Assembly (NCBI RefSeq): GCF_028331445.1
Contig: NZ_JAQMHX010000009.1
Location: forward strand, 1-64,000
DNA length: 64,000 nucleotides
Direction: 5' to 3'
Source: Candidatus Phyllobacterium onerii
GTDB lineage: Bacteria > Pseudomonadota > Alphaproteobacteria > Rhizobiales > Rhizobiaceae
This document shows, piece after piece, positions 49,285-61,368 of the stretch (positions are counted from its first letter, which is position 1; the number at the start of each line of letters is the position of its first letter). The notes below the pieces were generated by a model. It was not told the DNA's origin and did no database searches. It worked only from the letters and a program-made list of their open reading frames with translations. The translations under genes and the position numbers were made by a program.

Positions 49285-50139
49285 ATGTCTGACGTAGCGG
49301 GCTCTTACTGGCGCAGCGGCGTTCTTGACCCGCAGGGACCGGTTGGCGCCGCACAGAATACGATTTTGCTGAACGCGACAACGATCATGCTGGCAGTGGT
49401 CATTCCTGTCATTGTGCTCACTCTCGGGTTCGCCTGGTGGTTTCGGCACAGCAATGCGCGGGCGCGTTATATACCTGACTGGTCCTATTCGGGCCGCATC
49501 GAATTGATCGTCTGGTCGATACCCGCGATGGTGGTGCTTTTCCTCGGCGGAATCGCCTGGGTCGGCTCCCACGATCTCGATCCGGGCAAACAGATCGCTT
49601 CCAGCGCCGCGCCGGTCAATGTGCAGGTGGTCTCCCTCGATTGGAAATGGCTCTTCATTTATCCCGATCTGGGCGTCGCAAGCGTAAACAGCCTGGTGGT
49701 GCCGGCAGGTGTTCCGATACGCTTTCAGCTTACGTCGGCAACTGTGATGAACAGCTTTTTCGTGCCCCAGCTCGGCAGCCAGATTTATACGATGGAGGGC
49801 ATGACGACGCGGCTCAATCTGCTCGCAGACAAGCCGGGAAGGTACCCGGGACTTTCGGCGCAATTCAGCGGTGAAGGCTTTTCGGATATGCGCTTTGTGG
49901 TCGATGCAATGCCCCAGCAGGCCTTTGACCAGTGGGCCGCAAACACGCGGGCCGCTGGCGGGAATTTGGACGAGGCGAGCTATGCGCAACTGGCGCGTCC
50001 GAGCTCCGCGGTAGCGTCGTCCACCTTTGGTCAGGTGGAGCAAAACCTGTTCAATGATATCGTGAATTCTAACAACCCCGCACCCGGCACTTCCCCCACC
50101 GGGCACCATTCGACACCCTCAATTTCTGACGGAACCTGA
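49285..50139 (+). CDS. cyoA: Ubiquinol oxidase subunit II (CyoA type), without lipoprotein signal
   Basis: A 284-residue subunit with two membrane helices (about 28-50 and 74-95) and a cupredoxin-like periplasmic domain (about 110-220, [14 protein letters not shown]). The Cu(A) ligands are missing, as in quinol oxidases. Unlike most CyoA, no lipoprotein signal precedes the LDPQGPV start: the reading frame is stopped at 49255-49257. The N-terminus begins [12 protein letters not shown]. Subunit II is followed by cyoB after 1 bp. Confidence 0.9.
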
Positions 50140-50140
50140 C

Positions 50141-52093
50141 ATGCTTGGAAAGCTCAGCTGGGCCGCCATACCTTTCGACCAGCCCATTCCCATGATCGCA
50201 TCCCTGCTGGTCATGCTCACGATCTCCGCGATATTGCTGCTTTTCACGTGGAAAGGCTGGTGGCCGTACCTCTGGTCCGAATGGATCACCAGCGTCGATC
50301 ACAAGCGCATAGGCGTCATGTATATCCTGCTTGCCCTTGTCATGCTCGTCCGAGGCTTTACCGATGCGATCATGATGCGCTCGCAACTGGCACTGGCCGC
50401 GGGCGGCGCGCAGGGTTACCTGCCGCCGGAACACTACAACCAGATCTTCTCGGCTCATGGCACGATCATGATCTTTTTTGTGGCGATGACCTTCATGGTC
50501 GGCCTGATGAACTTCGTCGTGCCTCTCCAACTCGGTATCCGCGATGTGGCGTTTCCCGTGTTGAACTCGGTCAGCTTCTGGTTGACGGCGGCAGGTGTGC
50601 TGCTAGTGAACATGTCACTCGTCATTGGCGAGTTCGCACGGACAGGGTGGCTGGTCTACCCGCCTCTATCGGAATTGGCCTATTCGCCCGGAGTTGGCGT
50701 CGATTATTACCTCTGGGCGCTGCAGATATCCGGCGCGGGCACGCTTTTGTCGGGGATAAACTTGACAACAACCATCCTGAAGCTGCGAGCGCCCGGCATG
50801 GGCTATATGAGGATGCCGATCTTCTGCTGGACGGCGCTGGCTTCCAACCTTCTGATCGTCGCAGCTTTTCCGATCCTGACCGCGACATTCGCGATGCTCC
50901 TTCTTGATCGCTATCTCGGATTCCACTTCTTCACCAACGAGGCTGGCGGCAATGCCATGATGTATATCAACCTCATCTGGGCCTGGGGTCATCCGGAAGT
51001 GTACATACTGATCCTGCCCGCATTCGGCGTTTTCTCCGAGGTCATCGCCACCTTTTCCGGCAAAGCACTATTCGGTTATCGCTCCATGGTCATCGCCACC
51101 ATGGCAATATGTGTTTTGTCCTTCATGGTGTGGTTGCACCACTTCTTCACGATGGGCGCAGGAGCCGACATCAACGGCTTTTTCGGCATCATGACGATGA
51201 TCATAGCGGTGCCGACCGGCGTGAAAGTCTTCAACTGGTTGTTCACGCTTTATGGCGGGCGGCTGCGGTTCGATGCGCCGGTCTATTGGGCGCTGGGCTT
51301 CATGGTGACCTTTGTCGTTGGCGGCATGACAGGCGTTTTGCTTGCAATTCCGCCTGCGGATTTCGTCCTGCACAACAGTCTGTTTCTCGTTGCGCATTTT
51401 CACAACGTGATCATCGGAGGCGTGCTCTTTGGAGCTTTCGCAGGATATACGTTCTGGTTCCCGAAAGCGTTCGGCTTCAAGCTGGACGAGCGTATCGGCA
51501 AGGCAATTTTCTGGTGCTGGTTCATTGGTTTTTATCTGGCCTTCATGCCGCTCTACATACTGGGCCTGATGGGCGCGACACGGCGGATGCAACACTACGA
51601 TGTTGCCGGATGGCAGCCTCTGATGCTGGTAGCGCTGCTTGGCGCAATCGTCATCCTCGCTGGCATCGTCCTCACCGGCGTTCAACTCGTCGTCAGCATC
51701 CGCACACGCGACCAGCGGCGCGATCATACCGGCGATCCATGGAATGGGCGCACACTCGAATGGTCCACACCTTCTCCACCTCCGGCGTGGAACTTTGCGG
51801 TTTTGCCGGCGGTAAACGGCCTCGACCCTTACTGGGAAGCAAAGAAAAGTCCCAAATCTCACCGTCAAAACGGTCCCGATCTGGAAACAATCGCAGTTCC
51901 ACGCAACAGCCCCATCGGGTTCGTGCTGGCATTTTTTGCCGTCATGGCCGGCTTTGCGTTGATCTGGCATATCTGGTGGATGGCTATCGCCGGATTGATA
52001 GGCGCGCTCATGACCATTCTTGCTCACGCCTGGCGCGTTTCGGACGAGGTCGAGTACGTCGTCGCGAGCCAACGGCAGCGAGCCGCCATATGA
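50141..52093 (+). CDS. cyoB: Ubiquinol oxidase subunit I (CyoB type)
   Basis: The 650-residue catalytic subunit of a heme-copper bo3-type oxidase with about 15 membrane helices. It reduces oxygen and pumps protons. The CuB ligands are visible: HPEVYI (His and cross-linked Tyr) near residue 285 and the paired HH in WLHHFFTMG near 335; [10 protein letters not shown] near 423 holds the heme ligands. Overlaps cyoC by 4 bp. Confidence 0.96.
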
Positions 52094-52710
52094 GTGCAAG
52101 TTCATCGACTCACTCAGAGGTTCGCGAGATTCCAGTATCGGAACGCGGCCCCGCGCCGAGAAATGTGGTGGTTAGCTTCGGCTTCTGGCTGTTTCTCCTG
52201 AGCGACATCGTCATATTTGCGGCATTGTTTGCAGCATTTGCCGTGCTCTCGCACGAAACGGCGGGCGGACCGTCGGGGAATGATCTGTTTGATCGCAACC
52301 GCGTCCTTCTGGAGACAGCTATTCTTCTCGCGTCAAGCTTCACCTGTGGCCTGATGTCCTTGGCCGTCGAACAACGCAAACTGATCCCCGCCGCCGCCTG
52401 GGGCGCGGTCACGTTCTTGCTCGGCGCGACCTTTGTCGGCATGGAACTGTTTGAATTCCACGGCATGATCGAGAGCGGTGCCCGACCCGATCGCAGCGCC
52501 TTCCTTTCCGCCTTCTTCACGCTGGTAGGCACACATGGCCTGCACGTGTCGGCGGGATTGTTCTGGTTGCTTGTGATGTTCGCGCAGATCGCAACCCTCG
52601 GTTTCCGCCCGATGGTCCTGCGGCGGCTGCGCTGTTTCAGCCTGTTCTGGCACGCGCTCGATATCGTCTGGATTGGTGTTTTCACAATCGTTTATCTTGG
52701 AGCCCACTGA
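52090..52710 (+). CDS. cyoC: Ubiquinol oxidase subunit III (CyoC type)
   Basis: A 206-residue subunit with five membrane helices, typical of the bo3 family: [17 protein letters not shown] near 32-48 and [17 protein letters not shown] near 146-162. It begins at ATG 52090 inside the cyoB stop (ATGA). A longer upstream open frame in the same phase is only a shadow of cyoB. Its stop shares one base with the cyoD start (TGATG). Confidence 0.94.
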
Positions 52711-53087
52711 TGGCCGAACCCATTGAAACGACCGAGGATCAAGAGGCCGGTGCACCGCGCGTGGCCGGGGGAAGTTGGCAGGGCTACCTCACCGGAATGG
52801 TCTTTGCGATCATACTGACGCTGGCTTCATTCTGGGTTGCTGGAACCGATCTAGTCTGGGGACCGGGCGTGCCGATCCTGCTTGCCGTATTGGCGATTGC
52901 CCAGATGGGCGTTCACCTCGTCTTCTTTCTTCACATATCCAGCGCACCGGACAGCCTCAACAACATCCTTGCGCTGGCCTTTGGCGTCTTTGTCGTTGCC
53001 CTTGTTGTATTCGGTTCGATGATCATCATGGCCAATCTCAATGCAAACATGATGTCGATGCCGGAACTGATGAATATGCAGCGCTAG
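52710..53087 (+). CDS. cyoD: Ubiquinol oxidase subunit IV (CyoD type)
   Basis: A 125-residue protein with three membrane helices and the CyoD-type core AQMGVHLVFFLHISSAPDSLNNI near 65-87. It helps assembly of subunits I-III. The Cyo operon ends here; heme O synthase (CyoE) is not in the window. No terminator is obvious before the palindromic element at 53221. Confidence 0.93.
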   Translation: MAEPIETTEDQEAGAPRVAGGSWQGYLTGMVFAIILTLASFWVAGTDLVWGPGVPILLAVLAIAQMGVHLVFFLHISSAPDSLNNILALAFGVFVVALVVFGSMIIMANLNANMMSMPELMNMQR

Positions 53088-55673: not shown

Positions 55674-55979
55674 ACGCTTACAAGGCCCCCGTTACTCCTG
55701 GAGTACTCCTGTAATTATACCGTTAGAATTAGCCGGAGAAAAATGCACCACGGCGGGTGAAAGCCGTAGTCTCTTTGGTGGATACCCCCGTCCTTTGATT
55801 GCTTTTCTATGCTCCAAAGGTGGCGCAACCACGCACAGCCACGTCTGAACCACGTCACGGAATCGAGAACCGTTTGCCAGTTCGAATAGTGCTGCAAGGG
55901 ACACCCCAATGGGGCGCTTTTGAATCTTTCCAGCGTCTGTTACACTCTTCCCATAATCAATAAAATATGGGGAACCACC
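55674..55979. promoter_or_regulatory. Divergent region with palindrome GGAGTACTCC
   Basis: 306 bp between divergent GMC oxidoreductase and the DUF3365 gene; no gene is supported. A perfect palindrome GGAGTACTCC (55700-55709), with ACTCC repeated just before it, lies 27 bp upstream of the GMC start and is a candidate operator. Confidence 0.45.
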
Positions 55980-56723
55980 ATGCATCGCGGTCTGAGGTGC
56001 GGAGTTTTTCTAGCAGGGGTTGTATTTTGCGCTTTTGCAGGTGCGGTCGCCGCGGACGACAGCAATGACATCGCGACGGGAGAGAGGCTCGCGGCGTTCC
56101 TGCGTGCTGGTCGCACAGTGATTTCCGGCCACCAAAAACTGATCAACGACGCATCGATAGGCGACAAGCATCTGACGGGGCAACGTGTTGCTGACGAGAC
56201 GCTTGAAATCTTCGCCAAGGGAAAACCTGCGCCAGAAGACAGTTTCGATGCGGACGACAAAAAGCTTTTTGATGCCCAGGTCGCTGCCTTGCGCGAAGTC
56301 GTCGATGAGCATCAGAAGATGATCGATGTAGAGGGCGTGGGTTTCAAAGGCTTTATCCCCGCCACGTTTGCCCGCCTCGTCAATGAACGCTTCGGGGAAA
56401 AAGTCGGAGATCAGGCAAAGATGAAGGTGACGGCTCCAAAGGAACTGGTGCGCAATCGCAAGGCCCTGCCCGACCAGTGGGAGCAGCAGGTCATCGAACA
56501 GAAATTCATGTCCGCCGATTGGCCAAAAGGCAAACCCTTCGTCGAAGAGGTTCCCATGAACGGCCGTCCTGCGTTTCGCATGCTCATTCCCGAATATTAT
56601 TCCGCTTCGTGCCTCAGTTGCCACGGAACACCCAAGGGGGAGATGGATATCTCCGGCTATCCGAAAGAAGGCGGCGCAGAGGGCGATCTGGGCGGTGCAA
56701 TGAGCATCACACTGTTCAAATGA
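55980..56723 (+). CDS. Periplasmic c-heme DUF3365 (Tll0287-like) sensor protein
   Basis: A 247-residue protein with a signal peptide ([20 protein letters not shown], cleavage near 26). The domain resembles DUF3365/Tll0287, a PAS-like heme-binding fold. CLSCH at residues 211-215 is a c-type heme attachment motif. Family members are redox or gas sensors. It overlaps the hybrid kinase gene by 4 bp (ATGA), so it is probably that kinase's periplasmic input partner. GGGGA precedes the ATG. Confidence 0.85.
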
Positions 56724-59434
56724 GCGCTTTCAATGCCATTCGGTCCCGCATCGGCCGGCTCCTGGAACGGAAGATACCACTGCGCCTCGCCTGCCTTTCG
56801 GCGGCCCTGTTGGGCGCGCTTCTTCTCAGCGTCGCCTTCATGGCCCATGACCTTCTCGACAATCAACGGCGTGTGCAGGTGGCAAACGCGCGTTTTCACA
56901 TGTTCAGCGAGGCCGCCAAGGCACACAGGCATTTTGGTGAGATGCGCTATTGGCTGACCGATCTGTCCGTGAGCCTGCTGACGCTGTCGGAGCGTCGCGC
57001 CGAAACCGCAAGAACTGCCCTCGACGCGGATTTGGCACGTATCAGGGAGTTTGCTCCCGACGCCGCCGATATGATTCAGAAGGGGGCAAAGTCCTATTAC
57101 GATCAGGCAATGGAAGCTGTCGATGCCTACACCAACGACAACCGCGTCGTCGGCAATACCCGGCTGGCGGCAGCAAGAAATTATAGTGACGAAATAGACG
57201 GCGTCCTGACGGCGCTTGAAACACGCCTCGAAACTGAAGCCGATGGTGCGCGCGATATGGCCGTCACAACGATGCGCAACACATTTCACCGCGCAATGAT
57301 TGCAGTCAGCGCGATCACAATCCTTGGCGCGATCATGACGTGGCTGGTGCTTCGGTCCATCCTTGTACCACTGGGGCGCGTCGATAGAGCCATGGCGCAG
57401 CTCACCGAGGGACGCGAGGATGTCGAGCTGCCTCCCGAGGGTCGCGACGAATTTGGCCGGCTCGCGACGACATTGCGTCTGTTGCGCGACGGGCAGGCAG
57501 AGCGGCGTGTGCTTGAAGCCGCTGCAGAGCACCAGCGCAACACTGTCCGGACCGCAATCGAAACCATTCCCGATGGCTTTGCCTTGTTCGACGCCGATGA
57601 CAAGCTTGTCCTCGTGAACCAGCGCTATCTGGAGATTTTCCCCGAGACAGCGGACCTTATGACACCCGGAACCAGCTTCGAAGAAATCATGCGCGCGCAA
57701 GCGGAGCGTGGCCGGACCGAAATAGATCGTGCCGAGCGGGAGGCTTGGCTCAAGGAGGCAATGCGCCGCCAGCGGGACCCGCAGGGTACAATGGAACGAC
57801 AGTTTGCCAACGGCACCTGGATACGCGTTGCCAAGCGCAAGACGCCGGAAGGCGGTACGGTCGCGGTCTATACCGATATCACTGATCTGAAGCACCGTCA
57901 GACGGAGCTTGAGGAAGCAAGGCGCGGCGCGGAAGTCGCCAGCCAGGAAAAGAGCCGTTTCCTCGCCTCGATGAGCCACGAACTGCGCACGCCGCTCAAT
58001 GCGATCATTGGCTATAGCGAAATGTTGATGGAGGATGCCAGCGATTGGGATAAGCCCGGCTTTGTCGCCGATCTCGGCAAGATCATGGGATCGGGCCGTC
58101 ACCTTCTCGCATTGATCAATGATGTGCTCGATCTTTCGAAGATCGAGGCGGGCAAGATGGAGCTCTATATCGAGCCTGTCAGCCTGAAACAGCTCCTGGT
58201 CGATGTCGAAAGCACCGTTGCTCCGCTGATCGCCAAAAAAGGCAATCGCCTGACGGTAACCGTATCGGTCGAGCCCGACGAAATCGAAACAGACAAGACC
58301 AAGCTGCGTCAAAACCTTTTCAATCTGCTCTCGAATGCCGCCAAATTTACCGAGAACGATGAGATCCGGCTGTCGGTCCGGCGCTATCAGGACGACGACA
58401 GAGGCGATCTGGTGGAATTCGCTGTCAGCGACAATGGTATCGGTATGACAAAGGAGCAACAGGCAAAGCTCTTCCAGGCGTTCGTACAGGTCGACGCATC
58501 CACCACGCGCAATTATGGCGGAACCGGCCTTGGTCTGGCGATCACCCAGCACTTCATCAAGATGATGGGCGGTGCGATCGAGGTGGAAAGCAAATTCGGC
58601 GAGGGCTCGACCTTCCGGTTCACAATACCGGCAAACGGCACCCTGCCCCTCGCTGAGGAAACCGCTCCGCAGGCGGAGCTGCCTGATAACGCGCGGCGCG
58701 GAACTGTTCTCGTCATCGACGACGAAGCGCGGGCGCGCAAGTTCATTTCTGACACTGTTCGCAGCGCGGGCTTCAACGTCATCGAAGCCGCCGGCGGCGA
58801 AGAGGGCATGGCCAAGATGCGCAAATCGCGCCCGGACGCGATCATTCTGGATGTTATCATGCCCGGTCAGGACGGCTGGTCGGTGCTGCGCGAGATCAAG
58901 TCGGACAAGGCGCTGCGCGATATCCCTGTAATCCTTGCAACCGTCGTCGCGGATCGGGAGATGGGGTTGGCCTTCGGTGCTGCGGGCCATCTGGTCAAGC
59001 CCATCGATCCGCGTCAACTCGTTGAAATGTTGAACGCTGTCGCGGGCGCCGGGCAGCATGACGTGCTCATTGTAGACGATGACCCGGCAACGCGGGAACT
59101 TTTTCGGCGGGTCCTCGTTCGTGAAGGCTGGCGGGTTCGCGAGGCCATCGATGGCCAGCGTGGGCTTGCGGAGCTTGAGGCAGGACGCCCCACGGTCATG
59201 GTCCTCGATTTGATGATGCCCAACATGGACGGTTTCGCGCTGCTTCGGGCTATTCAGGACCGGTCTGACCTCGTCGATATTCCCGTCGTCGTCGTCACAT
59301 CGAAGGACCTTACTCGCGATGAACTGAATTGGCTCAATACGCGTGCGAGTGAAGTCGTCAGAAAGGGAACGAAAGGCCGCGCCGACCTGATCGCAGCCTT
59401 GAAGCGGCACGTGCCGCTCAGTGAAGATGCTTGA
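56720..59434 (+). CDS. Hybrid sensor histidine kinase with two receivers
   Basis: A 904-residue inner-membrane kinase. Segments: membrane helix about 22-44, periplasmic loop 45-192, second helix 193-214, HAMP 210-265, PAS 275-395, HisKA with phospho-acceptor His 420 ([10 protein letters not shown]), HATPase about 525-650 (NAAKFT, DNGIGM, GTGLGL), receiver 1 about 660-775 (Asp 711), receiver 2 about 780-900 (Asp 830). It can send phosphate to its own receivers and to later proteins. Start ATG 56720 overlaps the sensor gene. 11 bp separate it from the next gene. Confidence 0.95.
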
Positions 59435-59445
59435 GGAGCTGGAAT

Positions 59446-59811
59446 ATGGTCAAGATTCTTCTCGTCGAAGACAATGAGATGAACCGCGACATGCTTTCGC
59501 GCCGGTTGGAGCGGCGGGGATATGAGGTGATCATCGCAACCGATGGCCTTGCCGGCGTCGAAGCCGCGGTGAGCAACAAGCCTGATCTTGTTCTTATGGA
59601 CATGAGCCTGCCGGTCATCGACGGCTGGGAAGCTACGCGGCGGATCAAGGGAAATCCCGTCACGGCCGCCATTCCTGTTATCGCCCTCACCGCCCATGCC
59701 ATGGCCGGGGACCGGGAAAAGGCCATGGAAGCCGGATGCGATGACTACGATACCAAACCAATTGAACTACCGGCGCTCCTCGACAAGATCGCCCGTCTGA
59801 CCGGAGGTTGA
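59446..59811 (+). CDS. DivK-like single-domain response regulator
   Basis: A 121-residue receiver-only protein with full catalytic set: Glu 8/Asp 9 (LLVEDNEMNRDML), Asp 52 (DLVLMDMSLPVIDGWEA) and Lys in DTKPIELPALLDKI. It resembles DivK and the receivers in multi-step phosphorelays. It has no output domain, so it must act by protein contact, probably with the following cyclase. GGAGCTGGAAT precedes ATG 59446. It lies 6 bp before the cyclase gene. Confidence 0.9.
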   Translation: MVKILLVEDNEMNRDMLSRRLERRGYEVIIATDGLAGVEAAVSNKPDLVLMDMSLPVIDGWEATRRIKGNPVTAAIPVIALTAHAMAGDREKAMEAGCDDYDTKPIELPALLDKIARLTGG

Positions 59812-59817
59812 GCGCCG

Positions 59818-61368
59818 GTGTCCGTTCCCAATGACATCGGCCGCCGCGCCTATATTGCCCGCCTTGTGCAGAAGATCGCCGATCCCGCACAGGCTATCCT
59901 TGGTTATCAGGAACTGGTGATCGAAGCGGTATTGGAAAACGGGCCCGCCGAAGCACTGCCCGATCTCGAGAAGGTGCTTGGCGCTGCTCGCGACCTGAAC
60001 TTGCTTATCAAGCGGCTTTTGGAGATGGAAGCGTCGCAAACTGCCGGAATATTCACCGTCGATAGTGAATTGCGGCACGATTTGCGAACGCCGATGAACG
60101 CCATTCTCGGCTATTCGGAAATGGTCCTGGAGGATTTCTCGGATGTTCTCGCCGCAAGCATCGTTGATGATATTGCGAAGATCATCGAGGAAAGCCGGTT
60201 TTTGCTGGAGCAGATCGATGGAAGGCTCGATGTTTTCTCCGATGATCCCGATGAAAAGCCGACAGACCATATTGACGTCACCATAGCAGCCGATCTCGCG
60301 CGGACCATTGCCGCCCGCGTGGCTCCCTCGTCGGACGAAACGGGCCGTATCCTCGTCGTTGACGACACCGCCTCTAACCGCGATCTTCTGAACCGGCGCC
60401 TCACGCGCGACGGCCATCTCGTCACTGTCGCCAGTTCCGGCGAAGAAGCGCTGCGCATCCTGGAGACGCAGGAATTCGATTTGGCCCTGGCCGATATCCT
60501 GATGCCCGACATGAACGGCATTGAACTCCTCAGCCGGCTCAAATCGCACGAACGCCTGCGCGAGATACCCGTCATCATGATTTCGGGCCTGAAAGACGAT
60601 GACGCCATTATCCGTTGCATAGAGGCAGGAGCCGAGGATTATCTGCACAAGCCGATCGATCCGGTGCTGTTGCGCGCACGCATAACCGCCTGTCTTGAAC
60701 GCAGCCGTTGGCGCGAGCGCGAAAGGCGCTATCTGGCGCAGATCGAATTCGAGAAGGAGCGCGCCGATACGCTCCTTGACGCAATTTTGCCGAGACAGGT
60801 GGTGAAGCGGCTCGCCGACGGGGAAAAAGTGATCGCCGATCGCATCGATATGGCGACGATCGTCTTCGCAGATATCGTCAATTTCACGGAATTCGCGGCG
60901 CGCACCCCACCTATCACACTGGTTCAGAGACTTGGAGAGCTGTTTTCGCGCTTCGACGAATTGGCGGATCAGCACGGTATCGAGAAGATCAAGACCATCG
61001 GTGACGCCTATATGGCGGCGGCCGGGTTGCCCGACCCGCGTCCGGACCATGCCCAGGCAGCCGTGGCGTTTGCAAGGGCCATGCTGGCCGAGACGTACCA
61101 GATGACAGGTGAGCGTCGGCTCAGCCTGCGAATTGGAATAAACTCCGGCCCTGTAATCGCCGGTCTGATTGGTCGAAAACGCTTTGTCTACGATGTCTGG
61201 GGACACACGGTGAACGTTGCCAGCCGCATGGAATCCTGCGGGACGCCGGGACGTATCCAGATCTCTCAAAGCACTTTCGACGCGCTCGGCCCGGACTTCG
61301 GCGAGTGCCATCGGGAGATCCGGGATATTCATGGGATTGGCAAGTATCCGACGTACCTGCTTTTATGA
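59818..61368 (+). CDS. Response-regulator adenylate cyclase with tandem DHp-like segments
   Basis: A 516-residue protein. Two DHp-like helical pairs lie at about 14-70 (ADPAQAILGYQEL) and 83-140 (RHDLRTPMNAILGYSEM, His 87); no ATPase domain follows. A receiver (about 170-290, ADILMPDMNG) leads to a class III cyclase (about 320-500). Metal Asp are in FADIVNFT and GDAYM. Lys in KIKTIGDAYM and Asp in YDVWGHTVNVASRM fit ATP rather than GTP. It should make cAMP. GTG start with GGAGG upstream. Confidence 0.9.
   Translation: MSVPNDIGRRAYIARLVQKIADPAQAILGYQELVIEAVLENGPAEALPDLEKVLGAARDLNLLIKRLLEMEASQTAGIFTVDSELRHDLRTPMNAILGYSEMVLEDFSDVLAASIVDDIAKIIEESRFLLEQIDGRLDVFSDDPDEKPTDHIDVTIAADLARTIAARVAPSSDETGRILVVDDTASNRDLLNRRLTRDGHLVTVASSGEEALRILETQEFDLALADILMPDMNGIELLSRLKSHERLREIPVIMISGLKDDDAIIRCIEAGAEDYLHKPIDPVLLRARITACLERSRWRERERRYLAQIEFEKERADTLLDAILPRQVVKRLADGEKVIADRIDMATIVFADIVNFTEFAARTPPITLVQRLGELFSRFDELADQHGIEKIKTIGDAYMAAAGLPDPRPDHAQAAVAFARAMLAETYQMTGERRLSLRIGINSGPVIAGLIGRKRFVYDVWGHTVNVASRMESCGTPGRIQISQSTFDALGPDFGECHREIRDIHGIGKYPTYLLL

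Follow-up and report, generated by a model that had tools for sequence, protein, structure and literature searches.

A window of 64,000 nucleotides from Candidatus Phyllobacterium onerii (NCBI RefSeq assembly GCF_028331445.1, contig NZ_JAQMHX010000009.1, positions 1 to 64,000 of the forward strand) was found to carry four genes on the same strand which encode a heme protein, a hybrid histidine kinase, a receiver-only protein and a predicted adenylate cyclase. These are considered here as a candidate signalling chain leading from a periplasmic heme receptor to cyclic AMP (cAMP), with a putative phosphotransfer module at the front of the cyclase. The first-pass annotation of the window had placed the heme protein, a two-receiver hybrid kinase, the receiver-only protein and a receiver-cyclase in one operon, and this arrangement was confirmed using Pfam, with a 4-bp overlap between the first two genes and gaps of 11 and 6 bp between those that follow:

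55980-56723, + strand: heme protein gene (ATG start, 247 amino acids; read directly)
56720-59434, + strand: hybrid kinase gene (904 amino acids; ATG within ATGA, 4-bp overlap with the heme gene)
59446-59811, + strand: receiver-only gene (121 amino acids; 11 bp after the kinase gene)
59818-61368, + strand: cyclase gene (GTG start, 516 amino acids; 6 bp after the receiver-only gene)

An order-level search of 249 genomes, using the first 175 residues of the cyclase as query, gave clear matches (E 2e-15 or better) in 13 genomes, the source genome included, and regions of 16 genomes were fetched for a comparison of gene order. All four genes were found in identical order and strand in 10 of these 16 regions, with the cyclase being partly masked in two of them (L053, L054). 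Among the other six, L058 (genome G224) and L066 (genome G120) were cut by contig ends, and in both genomes a heme gene was found beside the sensor domain of the kinase on another contig; L061 possessed a different sensor and no heme gene, while L064, L065 and L067 possessed other kinases. A second set was obtained by scanning named genomes with an alignment of 11 heme proteins, which gave 212 pattern matches; 163 relatives were confirmed, and the best 80 of them were retained (the named loci). This set is biased to the subfamily of the operon itself, as the search patterns came from its members, and the two sets overlap, with five of the ten four-gene relatives (L052, L053, L054, L057 and L059) being identical to named loci. 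The sensor domain of the kinase lies downstream of the heme match in 80 of the 80 named loci, on the same strand and at a distance of 0 to 115 bases.

With a threshold of E 1e-8, a class-level search using an alignment of the sensor domain (A6) gave matches in 94 of 337 genomes. Many other proteins were drawn in because the alignment included HAMP columns, and all but seven matches were dropped, own genome included; those retained score at least 99.7 bits, the next one scoring 61. Five of the seven were found to adjoin a heme gene and two were not, with one of the five (L149) having the same sequence as L101. In a sample at the phylum level, the heme gene was detected in 6 of 398 genomes and was adjoined by the sensor domain in five. 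Judged from these gene orders, the four genes have evolved as a unit, one that is kept in distant relatives. The sixth match of the phylum sample (L159, genome G820) is a weak relative of the heme gene that is broken by an in-frame stop.

The heme protein was identified as a member of the Tll0287-like family (PF11845; 65.5 bits against a Pfam cut-off of 24.1), with no signalling domain fused to it, and can thus be described as stand-alone. Its translation contains the heme motif CXXCH in the form of CLSCH at residues 211-215, of which C211, C214 and H215 were invariant across 11 aligned heme proteins. A hydrophobic segment was located at residues 4-27 by hydropathy, which is consistent with a secreted protein, and no further Cys was found beyond CLSCH after this N-terminal segment. 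Only one Tll0287-like gene was found in the source genome (6.0 Mb, 65 contigs), and its product matches the heme proteins of Phyllobacterium trifolii and Phyllobacterium sp. KW56 at 100% identity. The CXXCH motif was present in 79 of the 80 named relatives. The exception (L145:6675-7580) carries CLACR and adjoins a kinase bearing the sensor domain, and this relative has perhaps lost heme binding.

Proteins of this kind (sCache_heme, DUF3365 or Tll0287-like; PF11845) are the subject of PMC12889525, to the covered sections of which the statements made here are limited. Nearly half of the heme-Cache domains are reported there to be stand-alone, and these are given redox roles; the stand-alone member that was tested has an axial Cys and redox-like properties, whereas the axial Cys is lacking in a member that is linked to transmembrane helices and HAMP and binds nitric oxide (NO), with slow release. 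A figure legend of the same paper also has Guanylate_cyc among the domains listed with sCache_heme. The heme protein of the operon has the Pfam match, the CXXCH motif and predicted periplasmic targeting in common with this family.

Searches by sequence against solved structures gave best matches of E 1.5 for the heme protein and E 0.84 for the heme alignment, both at chance level and with no Tll0287 structure among them, and the axial position was therefore judged by counting Cys residues, and not by superposition, from 185 residues before the heme motif to the end of the protein. The two cysteines of CXXCH were the sole Cys in 78 of the 80 named loci, with the exception of L145 and of L139, the latter being probably frameshifted. 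The lack of an axial Cys speaks for an open heme site, similar to that of the NO-binding member of PMC12889525. Unlike the tested stand-alone member, the operon protein adjoins a dedicated receptor kinase throughout the named loci and is without the axial Cys; being stand-alone, lacking this residue and being tied to a kinase, it appears to be an exception to the division made in that paper.

A refinement of this reading is that the signal is NO itself, making the operon an NO-to-cAMP switch. The axial Cys is absent as in the NO-binding member of PMC12889525, but that protein is joined to transmembrane helices and HAMP and is not free. Furthermore, the copper nitrite reductase NirK, the sole NO source examined, exceeded its cut-off in 49 of the 249 genomes overall and in 3 of the 13 for which carriage of the heme gene was established (the remaining genomes were not scored for it by a heme search), and none was found in the source genome. 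These counts give no support for a link to denitrification, and we regard NO as a possible but rather doubtful candidate for the signal.

Pfam domains HAMP, PAS_7, HisKA, HATPase_c and Response_reg (the latter in two stretches) were identified on the kinase, all above their cut-offs, making it a hybrid histidine kinase. Hydropathy showed hydrophobic segments at residues 18-47 and 191-219, giving the order transmembrane segment, periplasmic domain, transmembrane segment, HAMP, PAS_7, HisKA, HATPase_c and two receivers, which is consistent with a membrane protein possessing a periplasmic domain of approximately 145 residues. Its main features are as follows:

56855-57289 (approximate), + strand: periplasmic (sensor) domain of the kinase, with the motif FGxxRYWLTDLxVS...SERRA; helical as judged from sequence
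57950-58153, + strand: HisKA (DHp) domain of the kinase with the predicted phospho-accepting His (Pfam, residues 411-478)
58706-59032, + strand: first receiver of the kinase (Pfam Response_reg, best stretch residues 663-771)
about 59060-59410, + strand: second receiver of the kinase (limits by eye)

The heme protein probably has its partner in the periplasmic domain of the kinase. Pairwise distances of the two were found to be correlated (0.84, 70 loci), and over the same loci the partial correlation between heme protein and sensor domain given the kinase core was 0.636, compared to 0.226 between heme protein and core given the sensor domain; both values exceed all 999 permutations, with shared descent not being removed from them. 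With the heme protein being encoded separately from the kinase, the receptor is probably split over two proteins, namely the heme protein and the helical periplasmic domain of the kinase. A receptor split in this way is not described in the covered sections of PMC12889525, the main text of which is silent on operons and gene neighborhood bar one reference title. When the sensor domain alignment was compared with solved structures, 18 matches were obtained up to E 1; the top one (E 0.013) lies in the HAMP part and the helix preceding it. In G238, a genome that yielded no such heme gene, the sensor of the kinase is dCache-like (31.4 bits against a cut-off of 45).

At L153:5441-8069 (genome G357), the gene downstream of a heme gene encodes a chemoreceptor (Pfam MCPsignal) bearing the sensor domain of the kinase, and the pair of heme protein and sensor domain may also feed chemotaxis.

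Alternatively, the heme protein may be a redox carrier or scavenger that sits beside the kinase, with the kinase sensing something else. The redox-like properties of the stand-alone member of PMC12889525 and the lack of a fused signalling domain would agree with this, as would two divergent chemoreceptors (genomes G385 and G306) that carry a similar sensor domain, with no such heme gene found in either genome, from which it follows that the sensor domain can exist alone. Nevertheless, this explanation is considered improbable in view of the adjacency of the heme gene to one sensor domain in all of the named loci across differing outputs, the co-divergence of the two, the lack of the axial Cys that the stand-alone member of PMC12889525 possesses, and the chemoreceptor of G357, which has the same sensor domain and adjoins a heme gene.

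Downstream of the kinase, the receiver-only protein was identified by Pfam as a Response_reg protein (92.3 bits), while the cyclase was found to possess matches to HisKA (37 bits, cut-off 26.9), Response_reg and Guanylate_cyc, the latter two being located as follows:

60349-60684, + strand: receiver of the cyclase (Pfam Response_reg, residues 178-289)
60835-61362, + strand: class III cyclase catalytic domain (Guanylate_cyc, 186.8 bits)

In the aligned sets, each receiver showed at least 90% conservation at its acidic, Asp and Lys positions, with one acidic position being weaker in the second receiver of the kinase and in the single receiver. These positions were kept in 67 aligned relatives for the first receiver of the kinase, and for the receiver of the cyclase the acidic, Asp, Ser and Lys positions were conserved in 43. 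The possibility of degenerate receivers was rejected in view of the conserved acidic, Asp and Lys positions. Motifs of the cyclase catalytic domain were intact in 40 of 41 relatives, the remaining one being partly masked, and the residues present include those which we take to be metal-binding, the Lys/Asp pair presumed to select the base, and Asn/Arg. The protein is predicted to be a class III adenylate cyclase that produces cAMP. Among the 20 class III cyclase domains detected in the source genome, that of the operon has the top score.

The description of the last gene as a receiver-cyclase by the first-pass annotation holds for the receiver and the class III domain, but the region matching HisKA had been missed. 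Residues 15-144 of the cyclase are predicted to hold two tandem hairpins of the DHp type:

59860-60030, + strand: DHp-type hairpin 1, with Gln where the phospho-accepting His would be
60067-60249, + strand: DHp-type hairpin 2, with His87 (codon 60076-60078) in the motif RHDLRTP (Pfam HisKA, residues 85-134)

The two hairpins were matched to each other using hhalign (98.1%, E 8.5e-14), and both were also matched to the DHp domain of the operon kinase, hairpin 1 with hhalign (98.7%, E 3e-16) and hairpin 2 by profile comparison (99.7%, E 1.4e-26). Among the candidates scored, the best other match of this front module was the kinase of its own operon in 13 of 13 genomes. All 43 named relatives that possess the module have the His of hairpin 2. 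The residue next to it is Asp in 41 and Glu in two of them, and the fourth place is taken by Thr in 39, Ser in three and Asn in one. This His was likewise invariant in 13 order-level sequences, which overlap in part with the named set. The equivalent position of hairpin 1 was occupied by Gln in 38, Glu in four and Arg in one of the 43, and in none by His. No HATPase_c domain was detected in the cyclase up to E 1 with Pfam, unlike the cyanobacterial CyaC type with an ATPase domain in the cyclase chain, and no match to the Hpt family was detected up to the same E, which sets the module apart from a classical monomeric HPt. A conserved His on a DHp hairpin with no working ATPase domain is one of the features of histidine phosphotransferases of the DHp type (ChpT, Spo0B, PhyT).

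The conserved His of hairpin 2 and its absence from hairpin 1 suggest a built-in phosphotransfer domain, and the simplest reading of the front module would be that of a duplicated kinase hairpin turned into a single-chain phosphotransfer module. Hairpins of this type need not pair between chains, as indicated by the monomeric kinase EL346, the DHp-like domain of which packs on its own sensor domain according to the covered part of PMC10359499.

The main rival to phosphotransfer is that the tandem module is a phosphatase or docking element, which would bind the receivers bound by the DHp domain of the kinase and would either strip phosphate from the receiver of the cyclase or hold this receiver, with the kinase phosphorylating it directly. 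The acidic residue that follows the His and the Thr/Ser/Asn at the fourth place, each found in 43 of 43 relatives, form a pattern which we take to be that of the phosphatase motif of kinases, and 15 of the 80 named loci have a receiver-cyclase and a single receiver despite lacking the module. We consider this rival unlikely, since the His of hairpin 2 is kept in all 43 while the twin hairpin has lost its own. In addition, the PhyT protein, which was at first taken as a phosphatase, transfers phosphate and displayed no phosphatase activity on PhyR in vitro, although the authors leave dephosphorylation in vivo possible (PMC5898713, in its covered sections).

The output of the named loci was sorted by scanning all 80 of them, by checking 15 of their downstream or kinase proteins with Pfam and by comparing transporters. 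A receiver-cyclase with tandem hairpins was found in 41 of the 80, with two more being cut (L140) or masked (L084), and a receiver-cyclase in which no tandem module was detected was found in 15. In eight loci the receiver was fused to an EamA-type transporter (that of L115 being on the opposite strand), and one cut copy of like layout was also found (L132). These transporters were identified by Pfam at L106:7990-9558, L112:11945-13549, L143:11466-13055, L115:4146-5687 and L136:12022-13584, and by similarity at L114, L125 and L126; a receiver directly controlling a transporter would be unusual. Two loci (L130, L147) have a receiver-SpoIIE phosphatase on the opposite strand just downstream, and two others (L129, L144) have a kinase and receiver with no output recognised nearby, as scanned with seven home-made profiles by which another kind of output could be missed. 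Four possess a kinase devoid of receivers with no cyclase recognised (L117, L133, L135, L145), and five were cut by contig ends (L087, L118, L123, L124, L127). A frame for the single receiver was found in 40 of the 43 loci with the tandem module, in the other three within a longer frame, and in none of the eight complete receiver-transporter loci. Across the loci the sensor pair is constant and the output varies.

Taking these results together, we hold it to be reasonably probable that the operon encodes one signalling chain, running from a split heme receptor through the kinase and phosphotransfer to cAMP. The first step would likely be the sensing of a small molecule or redox change by the periplasmic c-heme Cache protein at its open heme site, upon which it would dock on, or leave, the periplasmic domain of the kinase. 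The kinase, from its intact motifs, is then likely to autophosphorylate the His of its DHp domain and to load its own receivers and/or the single-domain receiver. Whether phosphate would subsequently pass via His87 of the tandem module, in which one hairpin bears the His and the other does not, is about evenly balanced; this His could be the histidine step that a His-Asp-His-Asp relay would otherwise lack. Lastly, phosphorylation of the receiver of the cyclase would likely alter its class III activity and thus change the level of cAMP. That the operon works as one unit, with heme protein, kinase, receiver and cyclase in succession, had been put forward by the first-pass annotation, and this remains a natural reading with the motifs, receiver residues and catalytic residues conserved, but the tandem DHp module of the cyclase had been overlooked in it.

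Several observations weigh against such a chain. Over the 37 loci with the full set, the correlation of the heme protein with the cyclase (0.92) gave no contrast to that with the sensor domain (0.90), and the above chemoreceptors of G385 and G306 carry a similar sensor domain with no such heme gene found in their genomes. The cyclase of G224 (L058:880-1050) has His in both hairpins, whereas the protein of G120 (L066:6279-7943) has it in hairpin 1 only, with a SpoIIE-type phosphatase (Pfam) as output. Kinases without receivers were found at L088, L090 and L092. Furthermore, all 15 module-less receiver-cyclase loci keep the single receiver and 11 of them keep the two-receiver kinase, so that neither part is tied to the tandem module and the single receiver is not there solely to serve it.

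A broader proposal, to which we give a little less than an even chance, is that the front of the cyclase represents a new kind of phosphotransfer module. It would consist of a tandem-duplicated DHp hairpin forming a single-chain asymmetric four-helix bundle with one His, fused to its target receiver and to a swappable output (the cAMP cyclase, or the SpoIIE-type phosphatase in G120), and would complete a relay fed by the split periplasmic heme receptor, with some stand-alone heme-Cache proteins thus being receptor subunits and not redox carriers. The present subfamily, alongside which a dedicated receptor kinase is encoded in 80 of the 80 loci examined, gives stand-alone heme-Cache proteins a receptor function that can be tested. 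If the tandem module does move phosphate, a phosphotransfer domain can arise by plain duplication of a kinase hairpin, and there would be a route from the periplasm to one cyclase in a bacterium in which 20 class III domains were found.

When the window was aligned with four Phyllobacterium loci, a block of approximately 70 bases directly 5' of the heme gene (55910-55979) was judged by eye to be better kept than the remaining intergenic sequence, and is likely a promoter. Genes for a cytochrome bo quinol oxidase lie upstream (49285-53087), with CyoB above its cut-off. Within the flanks available, CyoA was matched in L078 and L085 only, and CyoB in L078, L085 and L102. The neighbouring GMC oxidoreductase, LysR and PNPOx genes were matched at high identity in L068, L069, L078 and L085 only, with no high-identity match in the Phyllobacterium loci L070 and L072 and weaker matches (29-38% identity) in a few other loci. 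A crude clustering of the flanking genes was dominated by antisense frames and was not used.

No description of the four-gene operon, or of a tandem DHp module before a cyclase, was recognised in the open-licence literature searched, a collection that omits most subscription journals. Systems that resemble it in part are known. In the H-NOX/HnoK and NosP/NahK systems, free-standing cytoplasmic b-type heme proteins control a hybrid kinase encoded adjacent to them, mostly with c-di-GMP as the outcome. In the operon described here, by contrast, the heme protein is periplasmic and predicted to be of the c type, and the predicted outcome is cAMP. Control of a class III adenylate cyclase by phosphotransfer has reportedly been described for cyanobacterial CyaC, in work of Kasahara and Ohmori from 1999 that is cited in PMC1183210, with kinase and cyclase said to be in one polypeptide. 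Class III cyclases under phosphotransfer control are in this sense already known, but the kinase and cyclase of the present operon are separate proteins, with a heme protein in front of them.

CyaC of Sinorhizobium meliloti shares with the operon a heme-linked redox control of cAMP in rhizobia, although it consists of a single membrane protein, the six-helix anchor of which holds two b-type hemes, and no two-component parts are mentioned in the covered part of PMC10463352. As for the tandem module, ChpT and Spo0B likewise carry the phosphotransfer His on helical hairpins of the DHp type; according to the covered part of PMC3433190, both pair the hairpins of two chains to obtain four helices and ChpT keeps an ATPase-like C-terminal domain, whereas the module described here has two hairpins in one chain, usually one of them with His.

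The closest worked-out relay is that of Pak-SdrG-PhyT-PhyR in Sphingomonas melonis, in which, following the covered sections of PMC5898713, the kinase-like phosphotransferase has a degenerate ATPase domain and is fed by a single-domain receiver. A kinase, a single-domain receiver, a kinase-like His phosphotransferase and an output receiver are common to this relay and the chain proposed here. The differences lie in the putative module of the operon, which is a duplicated HisKA-type hairpin with no detected ATPase domain and is fused to the output, and in the output itself, which is a sigma-factor switch in Sphingomonas melonis and is predicted to be cAMP here.

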